A stretch of 64,000 nt of DNA from Pontibacterium granulatum (lineage in GTDB: Bacteria > Pseudomonadota > Gammaproteobacteria > Pseudomonadales > Balneatricaceae). Where the stretch lies: the NCBI RefSeq assembly GCF_029961155.1, contig NZ_JASBRH010000004.1:186001-250000 (forward strand), read 5' to 3'. The notes under the pieces were generated by a model that was not told where the DNA came from, made no database searches, and saw only the letters and a program-made list of their open reading frames with translations. Position numbers and translations under genes: made by a program. Below, one piece after another: positions 7,387 to 43,068 of the stretch (position 1 is the stretch's first letter; every line of letters starts with the position of its first letter).

Positions 7387-8462
7387 GGTCGACCTCCGCG
7401 GGGCGTTCCCAAGTTGGCAGGTCCCAGGTTAAGCAAAGGCAAAATACCGCCCGCCTGCTGGTCGACGATTACCTGAGTCTGGATGCTGGGCAGCACCTCC
7501 TGCAGCGTCTCAATATAGATGCGTCGACGGGTCACCTCCGGCGCCTTACTGTACTCTGCCAGCAGCGCGCTAAAGCGCGACGCATCACCCTCGGCTTCGT
7601 TTATCCGCTTGAGACGGTAGCCGTCGGCCTCGCGAATTCGCTGATCTTTTTCACCCTGAGCCAGGGGAATCACCTTGTTGTAGTCGCGCCGCGCCTCGTT
7701 GATCAGTTTCTCTTTTTCCTGCTGCGCCTGGTTGACCTCATTGAACGAGTCCTGCACCGGCTGCGGCGGGTTGATGTTTTTCAGTTGCACCTGGTCGATG
7801 CTGATTCCCATCACGTATTTGCTGGAGAGCCGCTGCATCTTGTCCAGGGCTTCGACCTCGATCTCCTGACGCCCCACGGTAATCACCTCGTCAACAGTGC
7901 GGTCGCCCACCACCTCGCGCATCACCGATTCAGACACATAGCGCAGGGTTTCAGCGGGTTCGCGTACCTCAAATAGAAACTTAACCGGATCGGCGATGCG
8001 GTACTGCACCACCCACTCCACCAGCGCAGCGTTGAGGTCGCCGGTGACCATCTGGGTTTCACGCTTCTTATCACGGGGGCGGGGGCTTTGGTAGGGATCG
8101 TTGGCGCCGGGGGTAGTAAAGCCAAACTCCTGCTTCAACTGCCGCTTGACCGGTACGATGGTAGCAATATCCATCCCCAGCGGCAGTTTAAAATGCAACC
8201 CCGGTGGCACCTCGTAGAGATACTTACCGAAGCGCTGCACCACTGCCACTGAATCACTCGGCACGGTGTAGTAAGCAGTCCAGAAACTCAGTCCGCTAAA
8301 CACCAACACCGCTAGAACGATGATCCTAGTACGACTACCACCTGGTAGGTGACAACCGCAGTGAACCCACCCGGTACGGAGCAGACGACCCAGGTCAAAT
8401 GCCGATTTATTACTCCCATTCCAGGGATCTTTCTGATCATTGTTGCTTTGGCTTGACATCAT
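7383..8462 (-). CDS. hflK: HflK, SPFH/band-7 partner of HflC
   Basis: HflK is the larger half of the HflKC complex on the periplasmic face of the inner membrane. ATG 8462 is chosen because it follows GAGGA with four bases between; the upstream TTG at 8483 has no such site. The protein is 359 residues: a hydrophilic N-terminus, one membrane segment (about 45-65, RIIVLAVLVFSGLSFWTAYY), a band-7 domain, and a long charged helix (VNQAQQEKEKLINEARRDY). The N-terminus lacks the long Gly/Pro-rich stretch typical of core HflK and instead has two close cysteines (VHCGCH). It overlaps hflC by 4 bp and heads the pair. The start faces the divergent Crp/Fnr-type gene across a 300-bp gap. Confidence 0.9.
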   Translation of the reverse strand: MMSSQSNNDQKDPWNGSNKSAFDLGRLLRTGWVHCGCHLPGGSRTRIIVLAVLVFSGLSFWTAYYTVPSDSVAVVQRFGKYLYEVPPGLHFKLPLGMDIATIVPVKRQLKQEFGFTTPGANDPYQSPRPRDKKRETQMVTGDLNAALVEWVVQYRIADPVKFLFEVREPAETLRYVSESVMREVVGDRTVDEVITVGRQEIEVEALDKMQRLSSKYVMGISIDQVQLKNINPPQPVQDSFNEVNQAQQEKEKLINEARRDYNKVIPLAQGEKDQRIREADGYRLKRINEAEGDASRFSALLAEYSKAPEVTRRRIYIETLQEVLPSIQTQVIVDQQAGGILPLLNLGPANLGTPRGGRP

Positions 8463-8764
8463 ATATTCCTCTGTTGGCGCCAAATCACTCGCAGAGCAAC
8501 AACGACAGGAATACCCTCTATTGCTCCCCAGTCTTGTTACTTAAAGGGAGAGCCAAAGCCTGTTGATAACTCGGAAGGATTTAGGCCATTACAGACTTAG
8601 GATATAAGCCCCCCTCGGGGGAGTCGGTGCGCTAACAAACATAAAGCGCCAATACGAAGAAGTGTTTAACCGACTTGCCAAATCACCGACAAGCAACTGT
8701 ACTTCATAGATACGCTGTCATTTCTCTGGGATGACGGCGTTGAAACAACACTCTGGTATGAAAA

Positions 8765-9478
8765 ATGTCTCCTTCTCCACAACAAAACCATTTATTGGCC
8801 GCCCTGCCCGATGAAGTCCAACAGCGTCTGTTTCCTTACCTTAAACCGGTTACGCTGCCACTCGGTAAAGTCTTGTACGAGTCAGGAGAGATTCAACATC
8901 AGGTTTTCTTTCCGACTGACGCCATCGTCTCGCTGCTTAACGTAACGGAAAATGGCGCGTCTGCCGAAATTTCGGTGGTGGGTAATGATGGCTTGATTGG
9001 AGTGAGCTTGTTTATGGGCGGTGAAAGCACCCCCAGTCGCGCCTTGGTGCAAAGTGCTGGCTCTGCCCTGCAACTCTCAGCGCGGCGCCTTAAGGAGGAG
9101 TTTGACCGTCACGGCGACCTGTTGTTATTGCTGCTTCGTTATACGCAGTCGCTGATCACCCAGATGGCCCAAACCGCCGTGTGCAATCGACACCATACCA
9201 TCGACCAGCAATTATGCCGCTGGCTGCTGCTATCACTGGACCGCCTGCCGGGTAATCAATTAATCATGACTCAGGAACTGATTGCCAATATGCTCGGCGT
9301 TCGGCGCGAAGGGGTAACCACTGCTGCGGGCAAGCTACAGAAACTCGGCGTGATCGAATATCATCGTGGACACATTAGCGTGCTAGACCGTCCGCGCCTT
9401 GAAACACTTTGCTGCGAGTGTTACGCCGTGGTTAAAAAAGAAACAGACCGATTGTTGCCCTGGCACCCTAACAAGTGA
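8765..9478 (+). CDS. Crp/Fnr-family transcriptional regulator
   Basis: A 237-residue regulator with an N-terminal cyclic-nucleotide-binding-like beta roll (about 20-130), a dimer helix (residues about 115-145) and a C-terminal winged helix-turn-helix with the recognition segment LGVRREGVTTAAGKLQKLG. It has none of the N-terminal cysteines that hold the Fnr iron-sulfur cluster and lacks a clear cAMP-binding RS motif, so its ligand is unknown. It is divergent from hflK-hflC and could control that block (inference from position). It is the last gene before the tRNA fragment that marks the putative island boundary. Confidence 0.85.
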   Translation: MSPSPQQNHLLAALPDEVQQRLFPYLKPVTLPLGKVLYESGEIQHQVFFPTDAIVSLLNVTENGASAEISVVGNDGLIGVSLFMGGESTPSRALVQSAGSALQLSARRLKEEFDRHGDLLLLLLRYTQSLITQMAQTAVCNRHHTIDQQLCRWLLLSLDRLPGNQLIMTQELIANMLGVRREGVTTAAGKLQKLGVIEYHRGHISVLDRPRLETLCCECYAVVKKETDRLLPWHPNK

Positions 9479-10041
9479 TTAACGTCTTGGCAGTGCAAAA
9501 GAGAGGGAACAAGGTAGCACTGTAGAGGTGGGCTGCCCGTGTAATTCTGCAACTCGCGATATTGCGTTCTGCAGAGATTTTTTCAATGCCAGCAATTCCC
9601 AGAGGTATCGATTCGCTATCGCACCTTAGGGCTACATGAGAGCTACATGCTGAACGCTATAGTCATAGCCGGTTTCAAGCAGAGGTTGAACAACTGCCCG
9701 TACCCGAAATTTTAGATTGAATCAAAAATCAGTGACTGGTGTTGGTTTGCATTTAACCGTTCTCTCCTTTCCTAAGCCCGCTTATGTTGTTGAGTCCCCT
9801 ATATTCCGTCCAATCGCACCTACACTTAGGACAAAGCCTATCACCCGTTGCTAGACTGAATCGTCCAGCCTATCGTAGACAGTTGCTGTTTTGTGCTACT
9901 AAGCAAATGAGGGCTGATGTGCAGATTCTGTACGCATTGATATCTATTGATCTCGTATAAAACCCAACAATATGCGATTCTGAAGCTTTAGAAAGCCAAC
10001 ACTATCCACGATAAGTCACTATCATCCATGACGCTTCAAGT
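9479..10041. other. gene-poor stretch next to the tRNA-derived att site
   Basis: More than 500 bases without a credible gene. The sequence is AT-richer than the flanking genes and I see no repeat, RNA or strong promoter in it. It lies between the Crp/Fnr-type gene and the tRNA-Leu 3' fragment, where the end of an integrated element would be expected. Confidence 0.4.
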
Positions 10042-30753: not shown

Positions 30754-30883
30754 TCAAAAAAATACTTATATAAAACAGACAGTTGTAAGCAACACACCGA
30801 AAAAGGACGGATGATCGTTCACTGATTCTGGATAAATATCCATACACTCAAATTACACGCTGTCCGATATTCCAGACAGACAC

Positions 30884-30914
30884 AAAAAAACCGGCACAAA
30901 GGGCCGGTTTTTTT
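30884..30914 (-). terminator. terminator of the di-iron oxygenase operon
   Basis: Stem ccggc / gccgg extended by A-T pairs, flanked by seven A on one side and seven T on the other, so it works in both directions. It follows the reductase stop by about 20 bases. Confidence 0.85.
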
Positions 30915-30932: not shown

Positions 30933-31976
30933 TCAGACCAGTCGATCTTCCGCCGGTGTTTCAGGCAGTGCCTGATCAAAGAAACCTTCGGTGTGGATCA
31001 TATCGTCCTGTGCACCCAGCGCTTTGGCTGCCGCAATACAGTCATCCACAAATTCCGGGCTGCCCGCGATGTAGATCGCGTACTTGGACAGATCCGGATA
31101 GTGATCCTTCAGAATGCCCGGGATACGGCCGAACAACATGCCCGCTTTCTCTTCACGGGTCAGGGTCGGCAGGAACTTGAAGCGGCGGTGACGCACGTTC
31201 CACAGCTCCAGCTGACCTTTACAGTAGATATCTTCTTCGCGTTGGGCGGAGAACATCAGGTGTACCGGCTTGTTGAAGCCGCGGCGCAGGGCCGCATCCG
31301 CCAGCCCCATGATCGGCGCAAGACCGGTACCGGCAGCCAGACAGAGTACCGGCGCATCGGTACTTGGGTCACCGATAAAGGTGCCGTACGGACCGGAGAT
31401 GTTCACCATAGTGCCGGCGTGTACTTCGTCGTGCACCCAGTTACTGGTCTTGCCCTCAGGTACGCGGGTGATCTGCAATACGATCTCGCCATCCGGACGT
31501 GGCGCGTTGGCGATGGAGTAGGAACGTGGCGTAATGGTGCGATTGGTATCGGTCAGGCTGACATACTGACCCGGCCAGAAGCGCAACGCTTCACCCACAG
31601 GACGCAGACGGATCTCGGCGATACGTGGTGTGCGTTCGATACGGTCTACCACCATGCAACGTACGTTCTCTTTTGGCGGGAACAGTTTTGGCATCGCATC
31701 GTCGGTACCCCAGTCGATCTCCAGGGAGTCACCCAACGGCTTACACATACACATCAGGCCGTAGCCTTCAGCACGCTCTTCCTGGGACAGAGCCATGTCC
31801 ATTACCAGGCCCTGGTCGAACTCACCTTCCAGAACCTTAACCTTACACTCACCACAGGCACCGGCACGGCAGTTGTTAGGCAGGGCGTAACCCGCGTTTT
31901 CCAGGGTTTCCAGTACGGTTTCACCGGACTTGGCTTCCACCTCTTTACCGGACGGGGATAAACGGATCGTAGTCAT
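30933..31976 (-). CDS. [2Fe-2S]/FAD oxidoreductase, electron-transfer component of the adjacent oxygenase
   Basis: A 347-residue reductase. ATG 31976 is chosen because GGAGG lies five bases upstream. The N-terminal plant-type ferredoxin domain has Cys36, Cys41, Cys44 (CRAGACGEC) and Cys76. The FAD domain has RSYSIANAP, and the NAD(P)H domain has CLAAGTGLAPIMGLA and the late YIAGSPEFVDDC. The order ferredoxin-FAD-NAD is that of reductases for bacterial multicomponent monooxygenases and dihydroxylases. It follows the di-iron gene by about 100 bp on the same strand and shares its terminator, so it is the likely NAD(P)H-to-oxygenase electron carrier. Confidence 0.88.
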   Translation of the reverse strand: MTTIRLSPSGKEVEAKSGETVLETLENAGYALPNNCRAGACGECKVKVLEGEFDQGLVMDMALSQEERAEGYGLMCMCKPLGDSLEIDWGTDDAMPKLFPPKENVRCMVVDRIERTPRIAEIRLRPVGEALRFWPGQYVSLTDTNRTITPRSYSIANAPRPDGEIVLQITRVPEGKTSNWVHDEVHAGTMVNISGPYGTFIGDPSTDAPVLCLAAGTGLAPIMGLADAALRRGFNKPVHLMFSAQREEDIYCKGQLELWNVRHRRFKFLPTLTREEKAGMLFGRIPGILKDHYPDLSKYAIYIAGSPEFVDDCIAAAKALGAQDDMIHTEGFFDQALPETPAEDRLV

Positions 31977-32082
31977 ACTCACCTCCGGGCTCTGAACCTA
32001 ATCAATCAGCCCTAAAACATAAAACAAAGCAGCCAACCCGGGAAACCCGAGCGGCTGCGCAGTGACTAGCAAAGGGACGGGA

Positions 32083-33108
32083 TCAGAAGATTGGGATGAT
32101 GTCTGCTGCGTCCAGGTCTGCCTGAGTCACTTCTTCACCGGTGATGTCCACTTCAGGGATCGCCGGGAATGGAGTGTCGTACTTATCCAGAACCGCTTTC
32201 AGGTTCAGCATCGCTTCACGCCAGTTGTCTTTCTTCGCATCGAAGCTTGGGATACCAAAGCCCGCTTCACGAGCGATCTCTTCCGCTTCACGCTGAGTGG
32301 AGATGAAGTCTTCCGGCAGATCCCAGAACTCTGCTGGCGGCTCGAACAGTACCGCAGACAGGAACAGGTAACCTGCGCGGATCTGCTTGGTGATGATCTT
32401 CTTCTCTTCGTCGGACAGCTTCGGATAGTCGCGTTCCATCAGGGACAGACAGATCGCCATGTGGCGGCCTTCGTCGCGACCGATGTTTTTAAACGCTTCC
32501 TGGAATACCAGCTCTTCACAGCTCAGGGACATCTGTTTGAAGATGGTCGCCGCCGCGATCTCACCCATCAGGAAGGAACTGAACAGTACCGCCAGGCTGT
32601 ACTTAGGTACGGCCTGTTTGTAACCGTTCCAGTAACGACCGCCGTTGTAGTACAACCACGCAGCGTTGCGCTTCAGGCGCTTACCCAGGTCGGTTTTTGG
32701 CTCGTATTCCAGCGGGCTGTTGGATTCCAGCAGCTTGGTGATTGCCAGACCACACATCTGTTCGTGGTTCTGTTCGTCACGGGTAACGGAGAAGAAGCAA
32801 CGACGGATCGCGTCTTCTTCGTGGTCTTCATAGGTCTTGATAAATGCTTCGGCAAATACCGGTGGTGCAGATGCATCGAATACGGACAGCAGGGTCCACC
32901 AGTAAGCAATCGCTTCACGCTCTTCCCAAGAGTAGCTTTCTACATTGAAAGTATCCCAAGGCAGATCTTTCGGGTTCCAGGCTTCACGCAGAGAAGCATC
33001 CCAGATCTCTTCGGCCTTGGAGGTCTTGGTTTCCCAGCTCAACGGGTAGATGTTTGGCTGAGGCGTTTCTGGTGGCATTTCCATGGTGTGAGCGATCTTA
33101 TCGTGCAT
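32083..33108 (-). CDS. ferritin-like di-iron oxygenase, uncharacterised
   Basis: A 341-residue soluble, mainly helical protein. ATG 33108 is taken as start as it has AGAGG nine bases upstream; ATG 33114 has only two bases of spacing. Two E-x-x-H iron motifs are clear: RDEQNHEQM (Glu112, His115) and RDEGRHMAI (Glu213, His216). A bridging Glu is likely at 183 (FLMGEIAAA) and the first-helix Glu is probably one of those in the 87-98 region. This is the ligand pattern of the R2/soluble-monooxygenase superfamily, but the protein is shorter than bacterial multicomponent monooxygenase alpha subunits (about 500) and lacks the BoxB length. With the reductase downstream it should be an O2-dependent oxygenase or desaturase. 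I cannot name the substrate. Confidence 0.78.
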   Translation of the reverse strand: MHDKIAHTMEMPPETPQPNIYPLSWETKTSKAEEIWDASLREAWNPKDLPWDTFNVESYSWEEREAIAYWWTLLSVFDASAPPVFAEAFIKTYEDHEEDAIRRCFFSVTRDEQNHEQMCGLAITKLLESNSPLEYEPKTDLGKRLKRNAAWLYYNGGRYWNGYKQAVPKYSLAVLFSSFLMGEIAAATIFKQMSLSCEELVFQEAFKNIGRDEGRHMAICLSLMERDYPKLSDEEKKIITKQIRAGYLFLSAVLFEPPAEFWDLPEDFISTQREAEEIAREAGFGIPSFDAKKDNWREAMLNLKAVLDKYDTPFPAIPEVDITGEEVTQADLDAADIIPIF

Positions 33109-33166
33109 GAGCATAACCTCTGATTGGGGTGTTGTTATTTTTAAGTCCGCTCAAATTTAGCACTTA

Positions 33167-33355: not shown

Positions 33356-33369
33356 TTGACTCAGATCAA
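33356..33369. promoter_or_regulatory. Fnr/Anr-type box
   Basis: TTGACTCAGATCAA matches the Fnr/Anr consensus TTGAT-n4-ATCAA with one mismatch. It lies about 130 bases upstream of the SBP-GGDEF gene and about 250 bases upstream of the divergent di-iron gene, so oxygen could affect either. Confidence 0.55.
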
Positions 33370-33501
33370 TTTTTACCCGTACCAACACTCTTCGTAGTCA
33401 GGACTCTCCCTTTTCTAAACAACATACAAGATTCGATTTAGCCCGATCCCCACTCTATTGCTACGCTTTAAGCACCGAAGATCTGTAAGGACTTATTGTT
33501 T

Positions 33502-34947
33502 ATGGGATTAAGGGAAACGTGCCTGCGATTGACTGCACTTTTATTGTTAGGCGGCGCTTCATGTGTGTGCTCAGCCGAGCTTGAGCTTAGTGCGGAGGAG
33601 ACACAGTATCTCCGTGAGCGAGGCCCGGTAAAGGTATGTGTAGATCCCAACTGGATGCCATTCGAAGCGATCAACAGACAGGGCCAACACACCGGTGTCA
33701 GTGCGGACTTTATGAAAGAGTACGCCAAAATGCTCGGCGTAAAGCTCCAATTGGTCCCCACTGAGAATTGGTCAGAATCAATGCACAACGCTCGTGAGCG
33801 ACTCTGTGATGTGTTGCCGATGATCAACCAAAGCCCCGAGCGTGCACAGTTTCTCAACTTCACGGTGCCTTATGTGTCCATGCCGGTGGTGCTGATCACC
33901 GATCTGAAAGCCACTTACCTCGACGGTCTGAAAAGCCTTGAAGGCGAAAAGCTGGCAATCCCCGACGGTTATATCTTTGCCGAATACGTACGCAATAACT
34001 TCCCCCAACTGGATGTGATCTATCCTCCCTCCCTGCTGGAGTCACTGCGTGCGGTCATGAAGGGAGAGGTCACGGCTGCCATGGCGACCCTGCCTATTGC
34101 CCTCTACCAAATTGAGCGGCATGGCATGAATTCACTGAAAATTGGCGGCCATACGGATTTCACCATCGAGCTGGGCATCGGCATCCGTAACGACGACCTG
34201 CTGCTGACCACGGCCTTTCAGAAAGCGGTACTGGCAATCACAGAACAGCAGCGGGATGAGATTCTGTCCCGCTGGTACAACATTGAGGTGGAGCAGGCCC
34301 GAGACTACACCTTGCTGCTTGTACTGGTCGGGATTCTGTCGGTGTTTGCCGTATTTCTGGCCTACCGCAACTACAATAGCCGCCAGTTCAACGCCCAGCT
34401 TTCCAAGGTCAACGCCCGCCTGAACGACCGTAACCAGCGCCTGGAGCAGCTCGCCAAACGCGATTACCTCACCGGGGTCTATCACCGGGTGAACATGGAT
34501 GCGGAACTGGAACGGGATATCGAACACTGTAGCAACAACGGCCAGCCCCTCAACATCATCCTGTTCGACCTGGATGACTTCAGCAAACTGAACGTGGACT
34601 ACGGCCACGCTGTCGGTGATCTGGTGCTGGTAGAGATGAGCCGTCTGGTTGAAGAACGCCTGCCAGACAACGTCCAATTTGGACGCTGGGGCGGTGACAG
34701 TTTTCTGATCCTCTGCCCTCACACGCCCGTCGACATTGCCCAGAAAACCGCCGAGGCACTGGCCTCGTCCATCCACAGCCACCGCTTCACTGAAAACATC
34801 CAGCTAAGCGCTACCTTTGTGGTAGCCACCTGTCATCCGCATCAAAAACAGGCCTGTGTGATGAAAGATGTGGAGCGCCGCATCCGGCAATTGAAACAGG
34901 AGTCACCAGGCAGAGTGGTGTTTATGGATAGTGCGAACGAAAACTGA
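33502..34947 (+). CDS. periplasmic SBP_bac_3 sensor fused to a degenerate GGDEF domain
   Basis: A 481-residue membrane protein. Residues 1-25 form a signal or anchor; about 35-255 is an amino-acid-binding-type SBP_bac_3 domain (VKVCVDPNWMPFEAIN); about 265-290 is a transmembrane helix (YTLLLVLVGILSVFAVFLAY); about 310-475 is a GGDEF domain. The active-site loop reads GGDSF (397-401) in place of GGDEF, so the general glutamate is lost and diguanylate cyclase activity is doubtful; it may act as a c-di-GMP or GTP-binding sensor. ATG 33502 is used; a TTG at 33496 with AAGGA four bases upstream is a real alternative. An Fnr-type box lies upstream. Confidence 0.85.
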   Translation: MGLRETCLRLTALLLLGGASCVCSAELELSAEETQYLRERGPVKVCVDPNWMPFEAINRQGQHTGVSADFMKEYAKMLGVKLQLVPTENWSESMHNARERLCDVLPMINQSPERAQFLNFTVPYVSMPVVLITDLKATYLDGLKSLEGEKLAIPDGYIFAEYVRNNFPQLDVIYPPSLLESLRAVMKGEVTAAMATLPIALYQIERHGMNSLKIGGHTDFTIELGIGIRNDDLLLTTAFQKAVLAITEQQRDEILSRWYNIEVEQARDYTLLLVLVGILSVFAVFLAYRNYNSRQFNAQLSKVNARLNDRNQRLEQLAKRDYLTGVYHRVNMDAELERDIEHCSNNGQPLNIILFDLDDFSKLNVDYGHAVGDLVLVEMSRLVEERLPDNVQFGRWGGDSFLILCPHTPVDIAQKTAEALASSIHSHRFTENIQLSATFVVATCHPHQKQACVMKDVERRIRQLKQESPGRVVFMDSANEN

Positions 34948-35089
34948 GGCGTAAACGACCTCGTCATGTTGAATGAAATGCCGGCAACGCCAAGCGGTGT
35001 TTACACCACTTTATCGCCTCCTGCAGCTATAGAGACCGTGCACAAATATGCACTTTGGAGCATAAACCTAGTTGATCACCCCTCAATAC

Positions 35090-35103
35090 TTGATCCAGAT
35101 CAA
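35090..35103. promoter_or_regulatory. Fnr/Anr box, perfect consensus
   Basis: TTGATCCAGATCAA matches TTGAT-n4-ATCAA exactly. Its centre lies about 113 bases upstream of the start of the MASE1-GGDEF-EAL gene, within reach of an activator site, which suggests that this gene is controlled by oxygen. Confidence 0.65.
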
Positions 35104-35209
35104 AAGCTTTACCCTTTCTGCATATCAATCTCATTACTAGTACTTTTTTCGTAATATCCTTGCCGCTCTATTTTTCACAGTACAAATTTATGCAGTTTCA
35201 ACTTACTCC

Positions 35210-38200
35210 ATGGACTCTGGTAATCAGTATTTGCTGGCGACGCTTAACAACGCCACCCATCGTTCGTTCGCTTCGCTAAGGCATACCCTTCGCGATAAGA
35301 GCGCGCTGTTCAAAATCAGCCTCTTTACTCTGTTATACGGGCTCTGCGGTACCCTCACACTCTCTGTACTTTCGGTTGACCTGCAAATACTGAACACTTG
35401 GCTTGCCAATGGCGTTGCTTTGGCAGTCTTGCTCATTGGGGGCATCCAACTCTGGCCCGGCATTCTGTTAGGTTCCATTCTTAGCGGACTTTCCACAGAG
35501 AGCGCACCTACGTTGATCGGAAGCGTGGCGTTCGCCAACACTCTTGGTGTGCTATCAGCCGTAATCTATCTCAAACATTGGTATCACCGCGGCCTCAGCA
35601 TGCGCACCCGGCAGGACTATCTGCAGATTACAATCGCCGGTCTGATCTGCGCAGCAACCACCGCAACCCTCGGTACGCTCTCCCACGGACTGCTGGGTGA
35701 GGCACCGGGGAGCAGCCATCCGTACAACTTTGTGCACTGGTTCCAGGGAGACCTGTTAGGTGTTGTGGTGATCACCGTCTCCATTCTGGCGTGGAAGTGC
35801 CCGCCCCGGTACACCTACTCCTACACCCTGTTCAGTGAGGTTTTGTTTTTTGGCGCCATGACCTTGGTGGTCGCTTTTGCAATTTTTGCCGACGGCGCCG
35901 GTGGTTGGCTGGAATCCTATCTGATGTTCGCGTTCGTGGCTTGGGGCGGTGTGCGTTTCAAGATGCACGGCGCCCTGTTTGTAATCAGTATCTGCACCTT
36001 GTTAGGCATGGCTTACCTTGTCGAAGATATCGCCATCAACACGGAGCAGCAGCCCATCCAAGGCGTCACCAACCTGTGGATGTTCCTGATGGCGCTGAGT
36101 GTGATCGGCACAATTCTGGCTTTGGCTATCCAGGAGAAAGAGCAACTGGAAAATTCCGCCATCACTCGCAGCGAAGCATTACAAAAGCTTTACCAAGGCG
36201 CTCAACTCGACGAAGTTATCCATTTTGCTCTGCGCCAGATAGAGAAGGACAATCCGGAATTCCGCTGCTGCGCTGTGATCAGCAATAGCGGCGGAGATAT
36301 CGACATTCTGAGCGCCCCCCATATCAGTAAACGCTGGGATAAAGACACGACCGAAGCGTTGGCAGCCCTGACCCTGGCAAGTGCAACGCGTAAACGCTTC
36401 ACCGTCCCCGATGTGCAATGCGACCCGCAGTGGAAGAGCCGTGCGGAAATAGCCGAACGCCTGCGCATCCGCTCCTGTTACCTGCAGCCCATTCGCGGCG
36501 GCAACGGCAAGCAGTTGGGCATTTTTGCCCTATACAAAAAGTACGCTGGTACACCGTCGGGTAACGAGCGGCGTCTGGTCAATCGCATCAGCACCTTACT
36601 GGCCCTGGTGGTTGAGCAGTACCGCCAATCGGAAGAGTTGCAATTGGCATCGCTGATCTTTGGTAACAGCAGCGAAGCGATGACCGTCACCGACGCCAAC
36701 GGCCTCATTCTGGCCGTCAATCCGGCGTTTACTAAAGTGACCGGATACGAGTTTTCCGAAGTCAAAGGGCAGAAAACCAGCGTCCTGAGTTCCGATCTGC
36801 ACGATAAATCCTTCTACCGCACTATGTGGCAGTCACTGTCGGAAACCGGAGCCTGGCAGGGGGAGATCTGGAACAAGAAAAAAACCGGCGAGCTCTATCC
36901 CGAGTGGCTGACGATCAACACGGTCTACAACAAGGACGGTAATCCCCACCGCCGCGTCGCATTGTTTTCCGACCTATCCGCCCAGAAGGAATCGGAAAAA
37001 CTGATCTGGCAGCAGGCCAACCTGGACCCGCTAACCTCCCTGCCCAACCGCAATATGTTCCTGGACCTGATGAGCAGCGCCATGTGCGAAGCCGACTTTT
37101 CCGGCCTGCCGGTGGCCCTGCTGTTTATCGACCTCGATCGCTTTAAGGATGTGAACGACACCCTGGGACACCACCAGGGTGATGACCTGCTGAAACAGGT
37201 CGCCAAACGCATCAGCAACTGCGTACGTCAGTCCGATGTGGTTGCCCGCCTGGGGGGCGATGAGTTTACAGTGATCCTGAAGCAGGTCTCCAACGCTCAG
37301 AGCCCGGAACGCGTCGCCTCGGATATTATCAACGCACTCTCATCCAGCTATACACTGGATGACAACGAGGTGAACTACATCTCCGCCAGTGTCGGCATCA
37401 GCTTGTACCCGAACGATGCCCAGGATGTGCAGTCACTGCTGAAAAACGCCGACCAGGCGATGTACACCGCCAAGCGCCAGGGACGTAACCGCTATCAGTT
37501 CTTTACGCCACAGATGGAGGAGGAAACGCGAGAGCGCATCCAGCTCACCTCCGACCTGAAAACCGCCATCTGCAAGCAGGAGCTGGTCGCCTATTACCAA
37601 CCCATCGTTGATCTGCAGAACAACTCAGTCTATAAGGCCGAACTGCTGCTGCGCTGGATTCACCCGGTGCGCGGATTTGTCAGCCCGGCAGACTTTATTC
37701 CGCTGGCCGAGGAGACCGGCATCATCCTGGAGATCGGTGACTGGGTGTTCGGCCAGGCGTTGCAGCAGGTGAAGACCTGGCGCCACGCAATCGATCCCCG
37801 CTTCCAGATCAGCGTCAACGCCTCGCCAATCCAATTTCAGGATGCCCAGGGGAAACTCTCTCAGTGGACCGATCTGCTCGGCAAACGCGACCTCAATGGC
37901 AATGCGATCACCATTGAGATCACCGAGAACCTGCTGATGCAGTCCGGCGATCAGGTCACCGCCACGCTGAAAGGTTTCCGTGATGCGGGTATGCAGATCT
38001 CCCTGGACGACTTTGGCACCGGCTACTCATCGCTCTCCTACCTGCGCCAGTTGGATATCGATTTCCTGAAGATCGATCAATCCTTCGTGCGCAATTTGAG
38101 CAAGAATTCCAGTGAACTGTCACTGTGTGAAGCGATCATCGTGATGGCCCATAAACTGGGCATCAAAGTGGTGGCCGAAGGGATTGAAACCGAAGAGCAG

Positions 38201-38338
38201 CAGATGCTGCTGACCCAGGCAGGATGCGACTACGGACAGGGCTATCTGTTCTCAAAACCATTACCTGCAGCGCAGTTCGATGACTGGTACCGCTCCTTTC
38301 AGCCGGTCACGATCAGCGCTCAATCAGTAGAAAAATAA
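35210..38338 (+). CDS. MASE1-GAF-PAS-GGDEF-EAL cyclic-di-GMP enzyme
   Basis: A 1042-residue dual-domain c-di-GMP protein. Residues about 35-310 form a MASE1-type integral membrane sensor with eight or more helices (WLANGVALAVLLIGGIQLWP). A GAF-like domain (about 325-465), a PAS domain (about 480-595; SSEAMTVTDANGLILAVN), a GGDEF domain with intact GGDEF near residue 682, and an EAL domain follow. The EAL signature is ELL (residue about 811, KAELLLRW) with later catalytic motifs NLLMQ, DDFGTGYSSLSYL and KIDQSFV present. Both activities look possible. A perfect Fnr/Anr box is upstream. The stop codon overlaps the start of the next gene by 1 bp, so it may be co-transcribed with the PAS-chemoreceptor pair. 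Confidence 0.9.
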   Translation: MDSGNQYLLATLNNATHRSFASLRHTLRDKSALFKISLFTLLYGLCGTLTLSVLSVDLQILNTWLANGVALAVLLIGGIQLWPGILLGSILSGLSTESAPTLIGSVAFANTLGVLSAVIYLKHWYHRGLSMRTRQDYLQITIAGLICAATTATLGTLSHGLLGEAPGSSHPYNFVHWFQGDLLGVVVITVSILAWKCPPRYTYSYTLFSEVLFFGAMTLVVAFAIFADGAGGWLESYLMFAFVAWGGVRFKMHGALFVISICTLLGMAYLVEDIAINTEQQPIQGVTNLWMFLMALSVIGTILALAIQEKEQLENSAITRSEALQKLYQGAQLDEVIHFALRQIEKDNPEFRCCAVISNSGGDIDILSAPHISKRWDKDTTEALAALTLASATRKRFTVPDVQCDPQWKSRAEIAERLRIRSCYLQPIRGGNGKQLGIFALYKKYAGTPSGNERRLVNRISTLLALVVEQYRQSEELQLASLIFGNSSEAMTVTDANGLILAVNPAFTKVTGYEFSEVKGQKTSVLSSDLHDKSFYRTMWQSLSETGAWQGEIWNKKKTGELYPEWLTINTVYNKDGNPHRRVALFSDLSAQKESEKLIWQQANLDPLTSLPNRNMFLDLMSSAMCEADFSGLPVALLFIDLDRFKDVNDTLGHHQGDDLLKQVAKRISNCVRQSDVVARLGGDEFTVILKQVSNAQSPERVASDIINALSSSYTLDDNEVNYISASVGISLYPNDAQDVQSLLKNADQAMYTAKRQGRNRYQFFTPQMEEETRERIQLTSDLKTAICKQELVAYYQPIVDLQNNSVYKAELLLRWIHPVRGFVSPADFIPLAEETGIILEIGDWVFGQALQQVKTWRHAIDPRFQISVNASPIQFQDAQGKLSQWTDLLGKRDLNGNAITIEITENLLMQSGDQVTATLKGFRDAGMQISLDDFGTGYSSLSYLRQLDIDFLKIDQSFVRNLSKNSSELSLCEAIIVMAHKLGIKVVAEGIETEEQQMLLTQAGCDYGQGYLFSKPLPAAQFDDWYRSFQPVTISAQSVEK

Positions 38339-38856
38339 TGAAAAACAAAATCACCCCAACCCAGCACGAACGCGTGATGACGGAGGGCGACTTCATCGTG
38401 TCCAAAACGGATGCCAGCGGTCGCATCACCTACTGCAACGAGATCTTTATCCAGTTCTCCGGTTACTCCGAAGAGGAGCTGCTGGGCACCCAGCACAACA
38501 TCGTGCGCCATCCGGATATGCCCCGCGGTGTATTCCACTTTCTCTGGACCACCATCAAGGAAGGCAAGGAGTGCTTCGCCTACGTCAAAAACATGGCCAA
38601 AGATGGCAGTTTTTACTGGGTCTTTGCCAACGTCACACCCGATAACGGACCGGATGGACGCCCGCTGGGCTATTTCTCCGTGCGCCGCAAACCGCGCCCG
38701 GAAGCGGTCGCCCTCGTGTCAGAACTCTACGCTGAACTGCTGGCAGAAGAGCAAAGGGCAGGACCACGTGATGCCATTGATGCATCCCTTAGCCTACTGA
38801 CCTCCAAACTCAACCAACTGAATCTCAGCTATGACGAATTTATCCTTTCTATCTAA
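38338..38856 (+). CDS. Aer-like PAS-domain protein
   Basis: A 172-residue soluble protein with a single PAS domain (residues about 18-125; [20 protein letters not shown], then [19 protein letters not shown]). The NIVRHPDMP motif is diagnostic of the FAD-binding PAS of aerotaxis receptor Aer. The remaining 50 residues are helical. The frame overlaps the start of the chemoreceptor gene by 26 bp. In classical Aer, this PAS is joined to the HAMP and signalling domains in one chain; here the sensor and receptor are separate genes. Confidence 0.88.
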
Positions 38857-40363
38857 AGCGGTATACGCGGTTGTTTTCCTGAACCTGCTGCTGTTTATTG
38901 CCGGGATTATCGGCGTGGCGTCCCACGGCTGGCTACCGATGGACTGGCTCTGGTTTAGCGGATTGATGGTGTTTGGTATAGGCAGTGCCCTGCTCTATCT
39001 GCACAACCTGCGCATCGCCCTGTCACCGCTGACCGAGATCACTCGCGTGGCACGGGAGATTAGCGATGGCCAATTGGGCTCGCGTATCACCCATATCCGC
39101 CACCGCAATAGCCTGGGCGAGGTGTGCTGGCACTTTAACAACATGCTTGACCAGCTGGAGACCTGTTTCCGCGAACAGTCCACCGCGCTGAAGTTTGCCA
39201 GCGAAGGCAAATTCTACCGCAAGATGCAGACCTCAGGCCTGCACGGCGCCTACCGTGAGGCTCTGGAACAAGGCAACCAGTCGCTGGAGATTTTGCAGGA
39301 AAACCACCAGAAGGAGCGTCGCAACAAGCTGCTCTCCAACCTGGGACACCTGAACGCCGAAAACCTGCTGAAAAACATGACCACCAGCCAAACCGACATC
39401 CGCGGCATCGTCTCCGCCACCGAAGAGCTGGAAGCCCTGTCGGCGAAAAACGCCGCAGCAGCTGAAGACAGCCTCCAGTCGATGCAGGATATGAGCAACA
39501 TCTTCAGCCAACTGGTGCAGAAGATCGATCAGACAGCCAAAGCTGTCGAAGAGTTTAACGCCCACCAGGAAGCAGTCACCCATTCGGTGAACCTGATCAC
39601 CACGATTGCCGACCAGACCAACCTGCTGGCACTGAATGCGGCGATTGAAGCGGCCCGTGCCGGTGAACACGGACGTGGTTTCTCCGTGGTCGCCGATGAG
39701 GTGCGCAGCCTCGCCGAACACTCCAAACGGGCGTCATCGGAGATCTCTGACGTAATGCAAACCCTGCGACAGGGCTCATCGAAAATGCTGACCGATACCG
39801 AAGCAATGCGCGAGATGTCGATCGCTTCCAGCAATACGCTGGGTCAGTTCGAGAGTCACTTCAATCAAGTCGCCCAGTCGTCCAACACTGCGCTGTCCCG
39901 TATCAGCTATATCCACGACGTGAGCTTTGCCTCCCTCGCCAAGCTGGAGCATTTTATCCACAAGCAGAACGGTTATACGGCGGTGAATCTGGGACGGGAT
40001 TCAAGCAACGCCCGCGCAGCGGATATCGATACGCACCAGTGCTACCTTGGTCAGTGGATGAGTGCTGACGATACGCAGGAGCAGTTTGGCCAACTGCGTG
40101 CCTTCAACGCGATTACAGCACCGCATGCAGACCTGCACCTGAATATGCAGTTGGCGCTGGAACTGATCGGCCAGGATTGGGAACAGGATCTGGATATACA
40201 GACACAGCTGTACGCCACCTTCGAACAGATCGAAAGCGCCTGTGACACCGTGATCGATGCACTGGATGAAATGGTCGACGCCAAACACCAACGCTACAAC
40301 AGTGATGCATTTGCAGGGATCGAGCCGTATGAACCGCCGCCGCAGCGATACAGTGCGGCCTGA
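38831..40363 (+). CDS. methyl-accepting chemotaxis protein with C-terminal CZB domain
   Basis: A 510-residue chemoreceptor. Two membrane segments lie close together (about 10-30 and 38-58) with almost no periplasmic loop, as in Aer. A HAMP domain (about 60-115), then the signalling hairpin with the tip [20 protein letters not shown], follow. The C-terminus carries a CZB zinc-binding domain (about 375-475): [12 protein letters not shown]402-Q-C404-YLGQW, and APHADLH. CZB domains bind zinc through one Cys and three His and respond to oxidants in other bacteria. It lacks its own sensory PAS and should receive redox input from the PAS protein encoded in the overlapping gene. Confidence 0.9.
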
Positions 40364-41571: not shown

Positions 41572-43068
41572 CTATTTCATGGTTGGCATCGAGAAGTTCA
41601 CACCTTCACGCACACCGGCAGACGGCCAGCGCTGGGTGATCGTTTTGCGCTTAGTGTAGAAACGCACGCCATCCGGTCCGTAGGCATGGAGGTCACCAAA
41701 CAGGGAACGTTTCCAACCACCAAAGCTGTGATATGCCACAGGCACCGGCAACGGTACGTTGATACCCACCATGCCCACCTGGATGTGGTCGGAGAAGTAA
41801 CGCGCAGCCTCACCGTCACGGGTAAAGATGCAGGTACCGTTACCGTATTCGTGGTCATCGATCAGCTGCATCGCCTCTTCCATGCTGTTCACACGCACCA
41901 CCTGCAGCACCGGACCAAAGATCTCTTCCTGATAGCTCTGCATCTGCGGTGTAACACCGTCGATCAACGTAGCGCCTACAAAGAAACCTTCCTCGTAGCC
42001 ACTCACCTCCGGGCATCGGCCATCCACCACCACGGAGGCCCCATCCTGTTCGGCACTGTCGATGTACCCCACCACCTTCTGCTGGTGTTGGGCGGTAATT
42101 ACCGGACCGAAGTCATTGCTGCTGTCGGTGTAAGCCCCCACTTTCAGGGACTGCATCGCGTCGCGCATTTTGCCTACCAGCGCATCCGCCGCGGCATCAC
42201 CTACAGCCACCGCTACGGACAGCGCCATGCAGCGCTCACCAGAGGACCCAAATGCTGCCCCCAGCAGCTGGTTCACCGCGTTATCCATATCCGCATCCGG
42301 CATCACGATGGCGTGGTTTTTCGCACCACCCAGTGCCTGACAGCGTTTACCGTTGGCATTGGCTGTGCTGTAGATGTACTCCGCAATCGGGGTGGAACCC
42401 ACAAAGCTCACTGCCTTGATACGCTCGTCGGTCAGCAGCACATCCACCGCTTCCTTGTCACCGTTCACTACGTTGAGCACACCGTCCGGCAAACCCGCTT
42501 CCTGCAGCAACTGGGCGATAAACAGCGTGGAGCTTGGATCGCGCTCGGATGGCTTGAGTACGAAGGTGTTACCGCAAGCGATGGCCAGCGGAAACATCCA
42601 CATCGGCACCATGGTTGGGAAGTTAAACGGGGTAATGCCAGCCACTACACCCAGTGGCTGGAGTTCACTCCAGGAGTCGATACCCGGCCCTACATTCTTG
42701 GTGTAATCACCTTTCAGTAATTCCGGGATACCACAGGCAAACTCAACATTCTCGATACCACGCTGCAACTCACCCGCCGCGTCGTGGCTGATTTTGCCGT
42801 GCTCTTCACCGATCATGGCGCAGATCTTGTCGGCATTCTGTTCCAGCAACTCCTTGTAACGGAACATGATGCGCGCACGCTTGATCGGCGGTGTATTGCG
42901 CCACGCTGGATACGCCGCCTGTGCGGCAGCGATCGCTTCCTCAACCGTTGCTTTTGACGCCAGCGCAACCTGCTTGGAGACGCTGCCAGTGGCCGGGTTG
43001 TATACGTCCTGCACGCGGTCTGTTTCAGAGACCATAGTGCCGTTAATCAGATGACCTACGATGTTCAT
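41572..43068 (-). CDS. dddC: methylmalonate/malonate-semialdehyde dehydrogenase (DddC)
   Basis: CoA-acylating aldehyde dehydrogenase of 498 residues. The ALDH fold has Asn149 in TPFNFP and catalytic Cys280 in FGSSGERCMALS; the SGERCMA motif and length identify the MMSDH/DddC group. In DMSP catabolism it converts malonate semialdehyde to acetyl-CoA and CO2. On sequence alone it could also be MmsA (valine or inositol degradation). Neighbourhood to dddB, dddT and dddD decides for DddC. Confidence 0.88.
   Translation of the reverse strand: MNIVGHLINGTMVSETDRVQDVYNPATGSVSKQVALASKATVEEAIAAAQAAYPAWRNTPPIKRARIMFRYKELLEQNADKICAMIGEEHGKISHDAAGELQRGIENVEFACGIPELLKGDYTKNVGPGIDSWSELQPLGVVAGITPFNFPTMVPMWMFPLAIACGNTFVLKPSERDPSSTLFIAQLLQEAGLPDGVLNVVNGDKEAVDVLLTDERIKAVSFVGSTPIAEYIYSTANANGKRCQALGGAKNHAIVMPDADMDNAVNQLLGAAFGSSGERCMALSVAVAVGDAAADALVGKMRDAMQSLKVGAYTDSSNDFGPVITAQHQQKVVGYIDSAEQDGASVVVDGRCPEVSGYEEGFFVGATLIDGVTPQMQSYQEEIFGPVLQVVRVNSMEEAMQLIDDHEYGNGTCIFTRDGEAARYFSDHIQVGMVGINVPLPVPVAYHSFGGWKRSLFGDLHAYGPDGVRFYTKRKTITQRWPSAGVREGVNFSMPTMK

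Follow-up and report, generated by a model that had tools for sequence, protein, structure and literature searches.

We analyzed two adjacent genes, here named OX and RED, in a 64,000-nucleotide (64-kb) stretch of the Pontibacterium granulatum genome (contig NZ_JASBRH010000004.1, positions 186,001–250,000; hereafter the window, with positions counted from its first base). Both genes lie on the minus strand. OX (32083–33114) is a 343-amino-acid (aa) open reading frame (ORF) for a candidate ferritin-like di-iron oxygenase, which its fold and gene context suggest to be a single-subunit phenylacetyl-CoA 1,2-epoxidase; RED (30933–31982) encodes a reductase with an N-terminal [2Fe-2S] ferredoxin domain followed by FAD and NAD domains. 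If OX begins at the ATG at 33108, which is the best conserved start in related sequences, the product has 341 aa; RED translated from a GTG has 349 aa, with an ATG two codons further in. Coordinates computed from the OX ORF placed the two putative iron motifs, E114-x-x-H117 and E215-x-x-H218 (343-aa numbering), at 32764–32775 and 32461–32472, respectively, on the same strand. These data confirmed the two genes, their positions and the 341-residue protein with two ExxH motifs described in the original prediction, which had been made from the letters of the window.

In RED, the Pfam families Fer2, FAD_binding_6 and NAD_binding_1 scored over their cut-offs, with the ferredoxin domain at residues 8–82, which bore out the ferredoxin-FAD-NAD reductase proposed as the partner. 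The domain order is BenC/MmoC-like, and the best match in the PDB was 5ogx (E 8.9e-43). The NCBIfam BenC model (cut-off 430) gave 153.5 bits and the PaaE model TIGR02160 (cut-off 420.8) gave 131.1 bits, so RED was not assigned to the PaaE type.

OX reached no family cut-off in Pfam or NCBIfam. Its Pfam scores were all below cut-off, namely R2 (PF00268; 20.9 bits, cut-off 33.6), AurF (PF11583; 20.3, cut-off 29.6) and rubrerythrin (18.1, cut-off 22.8), and the weak AurF signal (E up to 0.01) present in 59/59 OX members did not amount to a family assignment in any of them. No PaaA-type match (TIGR02156 or PF05138) in Pfam or NCBIfam, and no BoxB match (TIGR03225) in NCBIfam, was obtained at E values up to 1. 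The best phmmer match of the sequence in the PDB had an E value of 0.42, which corresponds to chance, as do the profile matches. In keeping with the original prediction, no close match to a characterized oxygenase family was thus found in Pfam, NCBIfam or the PDB. The AlphaFold2 model of OX, built from 55 sequences, was helical (predicted local distance difference test score [pLDDT] 82.8, predicted template modeling score 0.85), with a weak part at residues 81–110 (pLDDT about 62). A fold comparison, which the original prediction had suggested, placed R2-like oxidases, VlmB and other di-iron proteins nearest to this model: Foldseek gave an E value of 4.7e-4 to R2, and VIA-align gave Z scores of 17.4 to the R2-like ligand-binding oxidase (R2lox) 6f6f, 16.8 to VlmB (8wvr), 15.6 to methane monooxygenase and 15.5 to a PaaC-like Sulfolobus protein (4mud, SSO1313). 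Identity in the structural alignments with R2lox/VlmB-type folds was about 10%, and neither PaaA (3PW1) nor BoxB entries were among the 50 fold matches listed. OX therefore resembles R2, R2lox and the AurF–VlmB type in fold and in its sub-threshold sequence signal, but differs from them in lying below all family cut-offs and in its gene context.

D80, E114, H117, E185, E215 and H218 were invariant in 59/59 aligned OX relatives, and these residues are the putative iron ligands, with D80 presumably the first of them, judging from the spacing. The two ExxH motifs, two further carboxylates and the modeled helical bundle place OX, as predicted, in the ferritin-like di-iron carboxylate superfamily. 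OX also has an invariant Cys121, which would be equivalent to Cys151 in methane monooxygenase, at the position that the radical tyrosine occupies in R2.

The distribution of OX is patchy. The gene was present in a single copy in the window's genome and in 8/57 relatives (the window's genome included), with 88–94% identity across genera, and occurred in only 2/398 evenly sampled genomes of the phylum, the window's own and one from the same family. Among 84,980 species genomes scanned, at least 447 relatives were detected; the best 80 were carried forward and came from Oceanospirillaceae, Azospirillum, Azoarcus and its kin, Tepidiphilus, Denitromonas, Magnetospirillum, Sedimenticola, Arcobacter and others. 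Homologues in Vitreoscilla (77% identity), Variovorax (51–52%) and Nonomuraea (49%) came from five plasmid records. OX and RED stood in tandem in 85/86 loci, which rules out a chance pairing; the exception, Nonomuraea (L013, 7959–8981), had no RED nearby and no phenylacetate (paa) genes among the ORFs examined. RED was the sole gene held in common with OX across loci, and conservation was far higher in OX (74–94%, 80 loci) than in RED (54–94%).

Inspection of the neighborhoods, in which paa names were assigned by clustering of neighbors and NCBIfam naming of representatives, revealed that OX-RED is linked to the paa regulon in relatives. At least one canonical paa gene lay near OX in 37/85 loci, as counted with score thresholds set after the gene map had been viewed, and paaX was the commonest mapped neighbor (26/85). 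The neighbors named were PaaX, PaaG, PaaH, PaaI, PaaJ, PaaK, PaaN, PaaY and PaaZ, together with branched-chain-type ABC transporters; PaaA, C, D and E were near the pair in some loci, PaaC in 5/85 (PaaB was not searched for). Five Sedimenticola loci carry paaK, (paaI), paaJ, paaH, paaG and, in most of them, paaF on one strand and, facing the other way, paaZ, OX and RED, then paaX. These clusters contain no PaaABCDE, and no further oxygenase was recognized among their mapped genes (unmapped ORFs were not annotated). In four Marinospirillum-type loci the pair is inserted between paaK and paaA, in the order paaK-OX-RED-paaA...C-D-E, and on the Vitreoscilla plasmid it follows paaE, pcaF and paaZ. 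The original prediction had left the substrate unknown and had thought a sulfur- or lipid-related oxidation conceivable; the relatives put the pair in the paa regulon instead, and the sulfur or lipid role was dropped, as no linkage of that kind was found in them.

The Variovorax plasmids (L010, L011 and L012, about 8000–10020) carry their 51–52% identical pair in a different aryl-acid cluster, with PaaN-like, thiolase, enoyl-CoA hydratase, MaoC, CoA ligase and branched-chain-type ABC transporter genes, as well as an FAD-linked oxidase and an indolepyruvate ferredoxin oxidoreductase. In all likelihood, this sister enzyme acts on a different substrate.

A search for PaaA (TIGR02156) covered 79 pair-carrying genomes from the 80 loci (L024 was left out), in sets of 49 and 30. 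PaaA scored over cut-off in 32 of the first 49 genomes and not in 17, all of which had a PaaG match; in the second set it did so in 24 and not in six, all metagenome-assembled genomes (MAGs). One of these six, G527, encoded a complete PaaC as well as a truncated PaaA, leaving 22/79 carriers without canonical PaaA. When the broader PaaA_PaaC model was applied to these 22, 13 gave nothing, six gave a weak match (22–29 bits) to a protein of about 500 aa, and three contained a distant PaaA-like protein; in the three weak-match cases examined, the matching protein was BoxB (884–904 bits). Hence 19/22 have no PaaA/PaaC-family protein, apart from the six weak matches. All 17 PaaA-lacking genomes of the first set retained PaaG and 16 retained PaaK, over cut-off in 15 and 12 genomes, respectively; fused PaaZ occurred in six, and PaaN was found in 7 of the other 11 stretches or genomes, those without fused PaaZ.

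To set a base rate, 299 sampled genomes were searched, of which 62 had PaaA and 52 a PaaG match; among the genomes with PaaG, PaaA accompanied it in 38/40 over cut-off and in 47/52 at E 1e-90. Absence of PaaA was commoner in pair carriers (17/49 versus 2/40, Fisher p 6e-4; versus 5/52, p 0.003) and remained so in the least favorable comparison (22/79 versus 5/52, p 0.015); note that carriers and sampled genomes were drawn differently and that species are not independent in these tests. The OX tree required six or more changes in PaaA status, so the PaaA-lacking pattern is not confined to one clade. As separate observations, two Azospirillum that lack canonical PaaA encode a divergent PaaA-like protein near the pair (L074, 7579–8397, minus strand, PF05138 83.6 bits; L069, near 7660), and in a Bacteriovoracaceae MAG (G490; L119, about 7466) a PaaA-like protein (135 bits) stands beside divergent paaG, paaH and paaJ, with the pair elsewhere.

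An FNR/Anr-type box, TTGACTCAGATCAA, with one mismatch to TTGATN4ATCAA, was located in the window at 33356–33369 (unstranded), about 240 bases upstream of OX. In 45/84 loci, the 350 bases preceding OX contained a box with no more than one mismatch, and in 21 of these loci the box was perfect; the rate was 1.6% in each of two control sets (1680 shuffled and 682 random stretches). Because the box recurs before OX where the divergent neighbor differs, it was assigned to OX and not to the cyclic di-GMP (c-di-GMP) gene on the other side. The original prediction had set the pair between c-di-GMP genes under an Fnr box and a DMSP cluster; the box turned out to recur before OX in other genera, whereas the c-di-GMP neighbors were local, being present at high identity only in the same-genus locus L015 among 12 loci compared (L009–L020).

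Taken together, we consider it likely, from comparisons of sequences and gene order, that OX-RED is a two-component phenylacetyl-CoA oxygenase, most probably a 1,2-epoxidase, acting beside PaaABCDE or in its place. In the mechanism we propose, electrons from NAD(P)H would pass through the FAD and then the [2Fe-2S] cluster of RED to the di-iron site of OX; the reduced site would activate O2 and add one of its oxygen atoms to the phenylacetyl-CoA ring. The product would most likely be the 1,2-epoxide, which PaaG would convert to oxepin-CoA, whose ring PaaZ, or PaaN together with a hydratase, would then open. Tandem occurrence, linkage to paa genes, the recurring box and genomes that have paa genes but lack PaaA and PaaC are observations, from which substrate, product and electron path are inferred. 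In many bacteria, including the window's organism, the pair may work alongside PaaABCDE as an additional enzyme, controlled by FNR/Anr and used under scarce oxygen, and in Sedimenticola, Tepidiphilus, Arcobacter, Magnetospirillum and more it may take the place of PaaABCDE. With moderate confidence, we further propose that OX-RED represents an unnamed epoxidase family, related to PaaABCDE and BoxAB at most by the di-iron fold, that it is an FNR/Anr-controlled low-oxygen isoenzyme, and that it has replaced PaaABCDE repeatedly, so that PaaA and PaaC would not be universal markers of the pathway. The pair would presumably be activated through the box and would give an advantage at low oxygen.

Several observations weigh against this interpretation. 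No canonical paa gene was found in the window, nor in the stretch examined at 48/85 loci, including nearly all Oceanospirillaceae loci, and the window's genome has its own paaK, paaA, C, D and E on one contig, with paaN, G, H and I on another, so the role proposed for the pair of the window rests on the relatives. Comparison of OX with the PaaA and PaaC profiles gave an hhalign probability of 0.2%, that is, no detectable similarity. Several of the PaaA-lacking genomes are drafts or MAGs, three (G478, G482 and G490) contain the distant PaaA-like protein, and two sampled genomes (G367 and G192) have PaaG over cut-off with neither PaaA nor the pair, although a full paa cluster was not seen at their PaaG site. 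The box was poor or absent ahead of OX in 39/84 loci, and a one-mismatch box, in no case perfect, preceded paaA in 6/20 genomes; this control is biased in favor of OX, as the 20 genomes were hand-picked and 17 have a box before OX, and four of its six positives represent one Azospirillum site, while L138 offered only 394 upstream bases. An apparent tie between loss of the box and loss of PaaA (22/32 versus 4/17, p 0.006) was discarded, since it failed when independent pairs were taken on the tree, where it rests on four such pairs at most, on starred branches.

The genome paper on Sedimenticola selenatireducens AK4OH1, the strain of L096, in which no PaaA was found here, characterizes this strain as microaerophilic and gives phenylethylamine, p-hydroxyphenylacetic acid and tyramine as compounds that it uses (PMC5052931), and phenylethylamine is broken down via phenylacetate (PMC4498308); AK4OH1 may also use phenylethylamine and p-hydroxyphenylacetic acid by an anaerobic route. 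In Bradyrhizobium, PaaA-type subunits are reported to rise under microoxic conditions (PMC6515984); operation of the pathway under low oxygen therefore need not involve OX-RED.

Among other explanations, it seems unlikely that OX-RED belongs to the paa regulon and acts on another arylacetyl-CoA, such as 4-hydroxyphenylacetyl-CoA, widening the range of substrates without replacing PaaABCDE. That 56/79 carriers also have PaaA over cut-off would fit such a role, as would the use of p-hydroxyphenylacetic acid and tyramine by AK4OH1 (PMC5052931) and the Variovorax pairs of about 51% identity, whose cluster has a weaker paa likeness and a different CoA ligase, so that the substrate may vary within the family. 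It is opposed by the 19 genomes without PaaA or PaaC, by the retention of PaaG, and mostly PaaK, in the 17 tested of the 22 PaaA-lacking genomes, by the lack of another recognized oxygenase among the mapped Sedimenticola genes, and by the use of phenylethylamine in the same AK4OH1 strain (PMC5052931). We regard as improbable a guard or branch role, in which OX-RED makes a different product from phenylacetyl-CoA (e.g., a ring-hydroxylated ester) or clears toxic epoxide at low oxygen: the coexistence of two oxygenases in one Marinospirillum cluster, the FNR box ahead of OX and the reported reversibility of PaaABCE oxygenation (PMC4498308) are in its favor, but a guard would be useless in the 19 genomes without PaaABCDE, and PaaG, the epoxide isomerase, is kept in 17/17 of those tested. 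Another explanation takes the association with paa genes as in part coincidental and OX-RED as an oxygenase, for benzoyl-CoA (BoxAB-like) or otherwise, of aromatics-degrading facultative anaerobes; it is very improbable, for although the carriers are rich, by name, in denitrifiers and microaerophiles (Azoarcus, Denitromonas, Magnetospirillum, Sedimenticola and Arcobacter) and BoxB is likewise a single-subunit di-iron epoxidase (PMC4498308), OX has no NCBIfam BoxB match, the commonest mapped neighbor is paaX (box genes were not mapped), and a genuine BoxB is encoded besides OX in each of the three PaaA-lacking carriers inspected for it, for which reason OX as a BoxB substitute was dropped.

Under the favored assignment as a phenylacetyl-CoA oxygenase, OX-RED shares with the PaaABCDE of E. 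coli the gene neighborhood, a di-iron subunit served by an NAD(P)H reductase and, putatively, the reaction. It differs in having two genes and not four essential subunits, in the lack of sequence similarity of OX to PaaA or PaaC, in an FNR box that is commoner ahead of OX than of paaA, and in the reductase, since the FAD/NAD part comes first in PaaE (PMC4498308) and the ferredoxin domain first in RED. With BoxAB (PMC4498308) it has in common one di-iron protein without a structural subunit, a separate reductase and, putatively, an aryl-CoA substrate; BoxAB shows that so small a layout works on an aryl-CoA. However, BoxB proteins of 483–501 aa, compared with 341 aa in OX, are encoded separately in three PaaA-lacking carriers, BoxA carries two [4Fe-4S] clusters where RED has a [2Fe-2S] ferredoxin, and BoxB is reported not to oxygenate phenylacetyl-CoA (PMC4498308). 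The pair also differs from multicomponent monooxygenases of the sMMO and T4MO type, as the original prediction had held, in comprising two genes only and giving no such Pfam match. Those enzymes have an alpha subunit of about 500 aa together with beta, gamma and regulatory subunits.

As for the surroundings of the pair in the window, a terminator-like GC stem between A and T runs was read by eye 3′ of RED (30880–30914, minus strand). It was absent from the list of the pattern tool, which gave another minus-strand site at 30879–30860, and the scan found six terminator-like sites where 2.9 were expected; the evidence for a terminator after RED is therefore weak. Beyond this site, the gene downstream of the pair encodes 3-hydroxybutyrate dehydrogenase (TIGR01963, 387.6 bits), and neither it nor the c-di-GMP genes pointed to a function for the pair. 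The region 33496–40363, common to L015, contains c-di-GMP and chemotaxis genes, whose products are a GGDEF protein with a solute-binding domain, a MASE1-GAF-PAS-GGDEF-EAL protein, a PAS protein and a methyl-accepting chemotaxis protein with a CZB zinc-binding domain, and a CoA-acylating methylmalonate-semialdehyde dehydrogenase (TIGR01722, 690.8 bits) is encoded at 41572–43068 on the minus strand.

The OX-RED pair was not described in the open PubMed Central papers searched (subscription papers and preprints were outside this scope). The di-iron fold and the ring-epoxidation reaction are known already; what was not met with in those papers is the proposed tie of an unnamed two-gene family to the phenylacetate pathway. 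Breakdown of phenylalanine, styrene, phenylethylamine and other aromatics converges on phenylacetyl-CoA, whose ring step has so far been credited to PaaABCDE, which is also named as the oxygenase in Paraburkholderia, where a novel oxepin-CoA hydrolase was reported (PMC9007349). A survey of May 2026 presents PaaA and PaaC as robust genomic markers, kept in all 825 proteomes with the ligase (PMC13186573); its filter demanded co-localized PaaABCDE, so that genomes such as those of Sedimenticola would be missed. If our interpretation is true, current markers miss OX-RED and pathway prediction must add a two-gene route, which could also provide a two-gene biotechnological tool for aromatic epoxidation and for oxepin or tropone chemistry. 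Why "hybrid" pathways suit fluctuating oxygen would then become testable through the oxygen affinities of the two enzymes in one cell.

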